Of a DNA stretch of 64,000 nucleotides, positions 24,218-61,568 are shown piece by piece. The DNA comes from Salisediminibacterium halotolerans. GTDB lineage: Bacteria; Bacillota; Bacilli; Bacillales; Salisediminibacteriaceae. The position numbers were made by a program, and so were the translations under genes. The stretch's first letter is position 1; each line of letters opens with the position of its first letter. The stretch spans positions 558,001-622,000 of the forward strand of contig NZ_RKQQ01000001.1 in assembly GCF_003814815.1 (NCBI RefSeq). The letters are read 5' to 3'. The notes under the pieces are model-generated. The model had not been told where the DNA came from. It searched no databases and worked only from the letters and a program-made list of their open reading frames with translations.

Positions 24218-24826
24218 TTAAAACGATTTTGCCAGTGTTTCCGCTTCCTCAAGTGCTTGCTGCAAGCGGATGTTCGCCTCATCAGGAAATGTGCTCGTGC
24301 CTTCAATCGGCAAATGGTAATAATCTTTAATCCCGATCAAACGAAAAATCGTCCGCAAATAACGGTCGCCGTGTTCAAATCCCGCCATCGGTTCTTCCGA
24401 ATACACACCGCCGCGCGCTTGGATGTGAAGGATCTTTTTTCCGCCTGCCGTTCCCTCAATCCCTTTATCAGTAAAATTAAACGTATGACCGGGAACAATA
24501 AGCTGATCGACATAAGCTTTCATTTCCGGCGGAATACTCATATTCCAAAGCGGGGTCACGAAGACGACTTTTTCAGCCCGTTTGAACTGCTTGACGTAAC
24601 GGTTCTCAATCGAAGCCGTTTCCGTTTCACTCAAGCTTCCGTGCCGTTCCCAAAGCGAGAGAACGGTTTGATCAAGCCGGGGAAAAGTTTCAGCAAATAA
24701 ATCGATTGTTTCAATGGTTTCATCAGGATGTTCATGCCGGTATGAGTTGATAAACCGTTCGCCGACTTGCAGACCGTAAGATTGATGTACTTCTTTCGGA
24801 TTGGCCGTTACATAAAGCAAACTCAC
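24218..24826 (-). CDS. azoR: FMN-dependent NADH-azoreductase
   Basis: This flavodoxin-fold quinone/azo reductase of 202 aa reduces quinones and azo compounds with NADH. It is recognised from the N-terminal LLYVTANPKEVHQSYG phosphate-binding region, FVTPLWNMSIPPEMKAYVDQL and the IQARGGVYS segment. It begins 13 bp after the redoxin gene, so both form one transcript, which suggests a shared role in electrophile or oxidant defence. Confidence 0.9.
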   Translation of the reverse strand: MSLLYVTANPKEVHQSYGLQVGERFINSYRHEHPDETIETIDLFAETFPRLDQTVLSLWERHGSLSETETASIENRYVKQFKRAEKVVFVTPLWNMSIPPEMKAYVDQLIVPGHTFNFTDKGIEGTAGGKKILHIQARGGVYSEEPMAGFEHGDRYLRTIFRLIGIKDYYHLPIEGTSTFPDEANIRLQQALEEAETLAKSF

Positions 24827-24839
24827 GTCAAACGCTCCT

Positions 24840-25415
24840 TTAACTTTGCGGTTTTTCCGCTAAATAATAATCCGTTAATTGCAAAAGCCGTTCGGCCGAC
24901 ACGTGATCCTCAGGCGATGCATCGCGGTGCTCAAACAGCAGCTCGCCGTCTTCGTTAAACAGCCATGTCCCGCCTTGAATATATACGTCCGACTGTTTCA
25001 TCGACGTCATCACAACATCGCGCTGCTTTTGATCTTTCGGCATAATATTTTTCACTTGCCCGGTGACACCGGCCCATGCTGCTTTTGCTAACAGTTTTCC
25101 TTTCGGCATCGTCACATGGCCGAGCCCGTAAAAGGCCTCTTTATCCGGATCGCCGTAAAGCGGAAACGGCAGGCCTGTAAATGCTTGCAAAAACGATGAG
25201 ATCATTTCCGGTTTTGCCGGTGCGACGGCAAACACCCGCACATCACGTTCATGAAATTTGTCCATTTGCTCATGCAACTGCATGAGATGCCCGCGGCAGA
25301 TCGGTCAACCGAGATGACGGACAAAAACAGCGGCTGTGAGCGGACGCCCTTGGATCTGTTCAGCAAATGAGATCGCATTCCCTTGGGAATCAACGAGCTG
25401 ATAATCTGTGTTCAA
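24840..25415 (-). CDS. AhpC/TSA-like redoxin with UGA at the first CxxC cysteine; candidate selenoprotein
   Basis: Read through one UGA (25305-25307), the frame gives 191 aa of a peroxiredoxin-like protein of the PRXL2/SelU type. The family motif G-C-P-x-C-R-x-H appears here as HLG-UGA-PICRGHL, so the UGA falls exactly on the first, peroxidatic cysteine (residue 37); Cys40 is intact. Before the UGA come LVDSQGN and LTAAVFVRH; after it VFAVAPAKPEMI, FPLYGDPDKEAFYGLG and the C-terminal GGTWLFNEDGELLFEHRDASPEDH, all family-like. The start is TTG at 25415, eight bases after AAGGAG. A hairpin at 25269-25286 fits a bacterial SECIS. Alternatives are a point mutation (TGC to TGA) or a sequencing error; an ATG at 25283 would leave a protein without the active site. 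Cotranscribed with azoR. Confidence 0.75.
25269..25286 (-). promoter_or_regulatory. Candidate bacterial SECIS hairpin
   Basis: On the minus strand CTCATGC pairs perfectly with GCATGAG around the loop AGUU. The stem starts 18 nt after the UGA and the loop lies 25 nt after it. That is in the range described for bacterial SECIS elements, with a G among the first two loop bases. It lies inside the coding sequence. Confidence 0.6.
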
Positions 25416-25508
25416 TACAATCACTCCTTTTTATGCTTGATACCGTTGCTATTCCCTGTTCCAGCTGTTTTTATACGAATTTTTTCAAATCCGTTACGCT
25501 ATCACGCC

Positions 25509-61034: not shown

Positions 61035-61568
61035 TTAAAACGGCAAATCATCATCGTTAATATCAATCGGTTTTCCATCTCCAGCAAACGGGTCATCGTC
61101 GGCTTGCGGAGAATTTCCTTGATTATGCTGACCGCCTTGATTTCCAGGGGTGCTTTGACCAAAATTTTGATTTTGGTTCGAATTCGGATTGGATGCATAA
61201 CCGCCGTAATTAGACTGATCGCCGCTTTGGCTTTGACCGCCGGACGAACCTTTCGGCTCAAGAAACTGAACGCTTTCGCCGACAACTTCCGTCACGTAGA
61301 TGCGGCGCCCTTCATTGTTTTCATAATTGCGCGTCTGCATGCGGCCGTCAACACCCGCCATACTTCCTTTTTTCAAAAAGTTTGCGACGTTTTCAGCCTG
61401 CTTTCGCCAGACAACAATGTTAATGAAGTCCGCTTCACGATTTCCTTGCTGGTTCGAAAACGGGCGGTTAACAGCTAACGTGAACGATGTGACCGCTACA
61501 CCATTAGCTGTGTAACGCAGTTCTGGATCTTTCGTTAAACGTCCGACCAGGACGACCCGGTTTATCAT
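61035..61568 (-). CDS. ssbA: Single-stranded DNA-binding protein SsbA
   Basis: This 177-aa protein has an OB fold at residues 1-105 ([36 protein letters not shown]). A Gly/Gln/Asn-rich linker (about 108-160) and the acidic tip DDDLPF recruit repair and replication proteins. It lies between rpsF and rpsR, as in B. subtilis. Confidence 0.97.

Follow-up and report, generated by a model that had tools for sequence, protein, structure and literature searches.

A putative selenocysteine-containing PRXL2-like redoxin encoded across an in-frame UGA codon in Salisediminibacterium halotolerans and other Bacillales

Catalogues of selenoproteins have long listed peroxiredoxin-like (Prx-like) proteins with selenocysteine (Sec) in a UxxC motif (PMC9312934, PMC13188914). 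In 2006, a survey put the number of selenoproteins in Bacillales at three (PMC1794560). SelL was described as a Prx-like protein (PMC2398784), and the NCBI model NF040769 (SelL_rel_redox) shows that relatives of the redoxin presented here are already known. The literature covered, which was not exhaustive, described neither this Bacillales clade nor the spread and apparent Sec-only state that it shows here. With the Prx-like thiol:disulfide oxidoreductase selenoproteins of the PF00578 family (UxxC/UxxU; PMC13188914, PMC9312934), the redoxin shares the predicted thioredoxin fold, a putative Sec in UxxC and a SECIS-like hairpin just downstream, but it scored higher with AhpC-TSA_2 (PF13911; 57.4 bits, above the gathering cut-off of 27) than with AhpC-TSA (PF00578; 40 bits), and the match with Redoxin (PF08534) was weaker. 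The PF13911 entry of the catalogue, to which the redoxin was compared by description only, is UxxS and not UxxC (PMC9312934). NF040769 was the best NCBIfam match and covered nearly the whole length of the protein, but the score of 92.8 bits was below the curated cut-off of 120. Relatives scored singly reached 81.4–114.8 bits, and all ten members, including that from S. halotolerans, remained under 120, which places the Bacillales clade outside the model as curated.

The analysed stretch of S. halotolerans DNA (the window) is 64,000 nucleotides long, and the redoxin coding sequence occupies positions 24840–25415 on its minus strand. It consists of 191 codons from a TTG start (25415–25413) to a TAA terminator (24842–24840), with a TGA at 25307–25305 (codon 37) as the sole internal stop. 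The sequence AAAGGAGTGA at 25421–25430 (minus strand) was read as the ribosome-binding site, its AAAGGAG ending 8 nt upstream of the TTG. With TGA translated as U, the product of 191 aa includes AAVFVRHLGUPICRGHLMQLHE. The active-site motif is RHLGUPICRGH, in which Sec would take the first position of G-U-P-I-C-R, and the UGA thus falls at the catalytic Cys position with coding potential on both sides. A preliminary description had pointed to this frame without naming the strand, to a start with a good ribosome site and to a TGA at the first Cys of G-C-P-x-C-R-x-H; all these features were found. The Cys40 codon TGC (25296–25298, minus strand), presumed to specify the resolving Cys of UxxC, was invariant in alignment A3. 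One homologue, L100 (G269:C10:3324709-3325236), had Tyr in place of Cys40 (GUPYYQ) and retained both the UGA and the hairpin; the second Cys may therefore be dispensable in some homologues.

The candidate SECIS hairpin (25269–25286, minus strand) has a 7-bp stem, CTCATGC/GCATGAG, and the loop AGUU (25279–25276). It begins 18 nt after the UGA, the distance from UGA to loop is 25 nt, and the element folded alone gave -9.1 kcal/mol. The perfect stem reported earlier at this distance was thus recovered, and the sequence after the TGA satisfied the published bacterial SECIS constraints (PMC13188914) used as a yardstick. A perfect Watson–Crick stem of at least 7 bp in bacterial-SECIS geometry followed 23 of the 2666 TGAs in the window (0.9%). 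When the same peptide was recoded synonymously, such a stem arose in 0.47% of cases. Taken alone, the hairpin of the window is suggestive of a SECIS element; at a chance level of 0.5–0.9% it is the comparative evidence that decides.

Among 23 sequences, the 7-bp stem paired in 98.8% of cells, with changes on both sides at two pairs. One compensatory change, U-A for C-G, occurred in the window itself, which has CATGCAGTTGCATG where its relatives have CACGCAGTTGCGTG; Thr/Ala is changed to Met and Arg to His, and the base pair is kept. The covariation score of the stem exceeded all 500 shuffles, and slid controls collapsed. The loop codons were frozen, CAG and TTG each being present in 59/59 distinct genes, as against 55% and 12%, respectively, elsewhere in those genes, and the codon preceding them ended in G in all 59. 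These genes were extracted with a pattern in which the second motif position had to be Cys and, in the case of 23 genes, the first had to be TGA; the codon freezing is unaffected by this requirement, and the TGA counts given below were for that reason drawn from other sets. Hairpin conservation with compensatory changes, together with a TGA in every strong homologue compared, is far beyond chance. A SECIS model (R1), with the window in its training set, gave 64.3 bits at this hairpin and 15.6 bits at the next best place in the genome. Another, weak match at 61095–61053 (15.8 bits) lay within a 19-codon frame and was taken as chance. Rfam SECIS_1 (RF00031) matched nowhere in the genome, a result that is uninformative because none of the control genomes gave a match either. 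On the grounds of structure and conservation, the hairpin can be regarded as a probable SECIS element.

No homologue was detected by a single-sequence scan of the genome contigs, and a profile scan of these contigs yielded 48 loci. A full-length homologue was present in 23 of 60 genomes (that of S. halotolerans included), each with exactly one TGA, which lay in G-U-P-x-C in 23/23 cases; all 23 also had Cys at the second motif position. The genera included Alkalihalobacillus, Cytobacillus, Mesobacillus, Pseudalkalibacillus, Salipaludibacillus, Alkalicoccus, Evansella, Pontibacillus and Planococcus. Motif extraction with any codon permitted at the site recovered 45 Bacillales loci, all with TGA. 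A 46th locus (L085) was dropped by the motif filter and is apparently the same as the 3158-base contig of L025, a locus with TGA. A myxobacterial protein of 25% identity was the only Cys form obtained in this way. In one locus, L102 (G206:C6:1604599-1604883), the frame stopped after about 87 codons with UGA and hairpin intact, and it is possibly a decaying copy.

Within the order, a strong match was found in 70 of 397 sampled genomes (about 18%), with TGA inside the match in 70/70. Relatives thus showed TGA at this codon with an open frame on both sides, in line with the preliminary description, whereas the Cys homologues also anticipated there were absent: no Cys version occurred among the strong homologues in the 397 genomes. 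The search profile carried Cys at the Sec site and so was not biased against Cys forms. The redoxin family therefore appears to be Sec-only within the order as sampled, which is unusual because, in most Sec families, Cys relatives outnumber Sec members (PMC2398784). A phylum-wide sample provided no further strong homologue and no strong Cys form; it added two weak matches, both containing TGA. In a plasmid collection, distant redoxins with partial coverage were the only matches.

The selB gene was present in 179 of the 397 genomes, which makes Sec decoding unexceptional within the order, contrary to the earlier view that Sec would be notable in Bacillaceae. All 70 genomes bearing the redoxin gene were selB-positive (39% of the selB carriers), and the gene was found in 0/218 selB-negative genomes. 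The Fisher test gave p ~6e-29, a nominal value as the genomes are related.

The S. halotolerans genome itself encodes SelA, SelB, SelD and tRNA-Sec, clustered on contig C3 (528, 375 and 378 bits for selA, selB and selD, respectively, and 56.5 bits with Rfam for tRNA-Sec), and the absence of this machinery, named earlier as grounds for rejecting Sec insertion, is ruled out. The selD gene is also a UGA gene (MTAKSGUGCK, UGA at about 10184, minus strand), followed by a hairpin with the loop GUU, and its conventional ORF call begins after the UGA. A third UGA gene, on contig C7 outside the window (L127; G000:C7:15673-16014), encodes a lipoprotein-like redoxin (LVACGS) with the motif FTGTNUQLC, and its UGA is followed by the hairpin CAGCUG-GUU-CAGCUG. 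Sec decoding in this genome therefore probably serves at least three genes.

The Sec machinery, the SECIS-compatible hairpin and the TGA-bearing homologues with an open frame on both sides all support the proposal that Sec is inserted at the redoxin UGA, and with high confidence we conclude from these comparisons that codon 37 is read as Sec at the active site. In the proposed mechanism, SelA, using selenophosphate from SelD, would produce Sec-tRNA(UCA), which SelB would bring to the ribosome while binding the hairpin with the AGUU loop. The UGA would be decoded as Sec and translation would run on to the TAA. The predicted product would be a 191-aa thioredoxin-fold, peroxiredoxin-like oxidoreductase whose active site, U37-P-I-C40, corresponds to C44-V-V-C47 in prostamide/prostaglandin F synthase (PGFS, PRXL2B).

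A gene intact except for one in-frame stop also resembles a recent pseudogene, or a sequencing or assembly error in which TGA replaced a Cys codon of a dead gene. Independent genomes from many genera have TGA at this position, and this conservation already refutes such an explanation; it is further opposed by the conserved covarying hairpin and by purifying selection, with a median dN/dS of 0.06 after the UGA and 0.18 before it, and its probability can be treated as negligible. It is also very improbable that the UGA acts as a stop codon, whether real or programmed, with an upstream leader and a functional product translated from an internal start. The 147-aa ORF that such a start would use does exist (24840–25283, minus strand) and is under strong constraint; it is the expected pipeline call, lacking the active site, as had been foreseen in the preliminary description. 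Its ATG at 25283, however, sits within the hairpin stem and is not preceded by an evident ribosome site, and this codon is ATG in only one of 59 genes, being GCG or ACG in the others, so that this start is not shared by the relatives. Moreover, the 36 codons upstream of the UGA form beta-strands of the predicted fold and are under selection, which speaks against a leader, and the gene occurs in selB-positive genomes only. Read-through of UGA by Trp is known in Bacillus, and suppression by near-cognate Trp, or by Cys, would likewise give a full-length product. The strict co-occurrence with selB, the SECIS geometry and the covariation argue against it, as do the alignment of the UGA with the catalytic Cys of relatives and the lack of a Cys or Trp codon at the site in any member read from the order; suppression by either amino acid is thus hardly to be expected.

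Less settled than the decoding of the UGA as Sec is the activity of the product, for which a true peroxidase (peroxiredoxin) function, instead of that of a PRXL2/thioredoxin-like reductase, deserves consideration as the less probable option. The AlphaFold2 model built with 30 sequences (mean pLDDT 91) gave tied fold scores (Z 17–18) against PGFS, at 17.9, and the classical peroxiredoxins (AhpC, Prx1, Bcp), and the PF00578 and PF08534 matches agree with a peroxidase. The classical PxxxTxxC/U signature is, however, missing, as the redoxin reads F-V-R-H-L-G-U-P-I-C with R33-H34-L35-G36-U37 and no Thr at -3, and it has UxxC instead. The term 'peroxidatic cysteine' used in the preliminary description was therefore too specific. 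The best PDB sequence match was PGFS (9us9/9usa; E 1.4e-9, about 20% identity), with U37 and C40 aligned on C44 and C47 and the UxxC motif at the N-terminus of the first long helix, as in PRXL2/PGFS. The human enzyme differs in its Cys-Cys pair, and its substrate is not transferable. The motif of SelL is UxxU and not UxxC, so that U-P-I-C also sets the redoxin apart from SelL. The predicted product is best accounted for as a peroxiredoxin-like oxidoreductase of the UxxC type, with PRXL2/PGFS and the 'SelL-related redox protein' as relatives. Its redox chemistry, substrate class and electron donor can be suggested from family resemblance: a peroxide or disulfide is the probable target of the Sec selenolate, which would then form a selenenylsulfide with Cys40, and a thioredoxin-type donor may reset the Sec-Cys couple.

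It may tentatively be proposed, with somewhat less than even confidence, that these proteins form a Bacillales-restricted PRXL2-like UxxC redoxin family in which Sec is obligatory and whose gene survives only in genomes that retain SelB. If true, such a family would help to explain why Sec decoding is retained in aerobic bacilli. The apparent Sec-only state makes the question of what Sec does that Cys cannot testable in culturable bacilli, e.g., Cytobacillus and Mesobacillus. Gene prediction truncates such genes at the UGA, so that the active site is lost, and as scores with the closest curated model stay below its cut-off, this clade risks being annotated as fragments.

In the phylogenetic tree, the S. 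halotolerans protein grouped with Alkalihalobacillus (support 91/94) and not with two relatives from its own genus. Given the long branches, horizontal transfer is possible, a long-branch effect being the alternative. Two genomes recorded as Chryseobacterium sp. ISL-80 and Pseudomonas sp. ISL-84 (L048 and L054) carried the gene in the Bacillaceae part of the tree and are probably misnamed bacilli. Downstream of the redoxin gene, a flavodoxin-fold, azoreductase-like oxidoreductase is encoded on the minus strand (24218–24826; PF02525, 139 bits) and is possibly co-transcribed with it. As a candidate partner it was rejected, since tblastn gave no match to it in the flanks of the homologues. No neighbour gene was conserved across genera, and as the neighbours vary, no partner is indicated.

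A separate locus, L104 (G291:C7:172825-173094), combines a UGA redoxin with the motif GTWUPNCRKQL and a methyl-accepting chemotaxis signalling domain (PF00015, 86 bits) in one fusion. Frames of 399–461 aa with one TGA were also noticed in several other genomes. A Sec redoxin serving as a chemotaxis sensor, as the L104 fusion might suggest, would be unusual.
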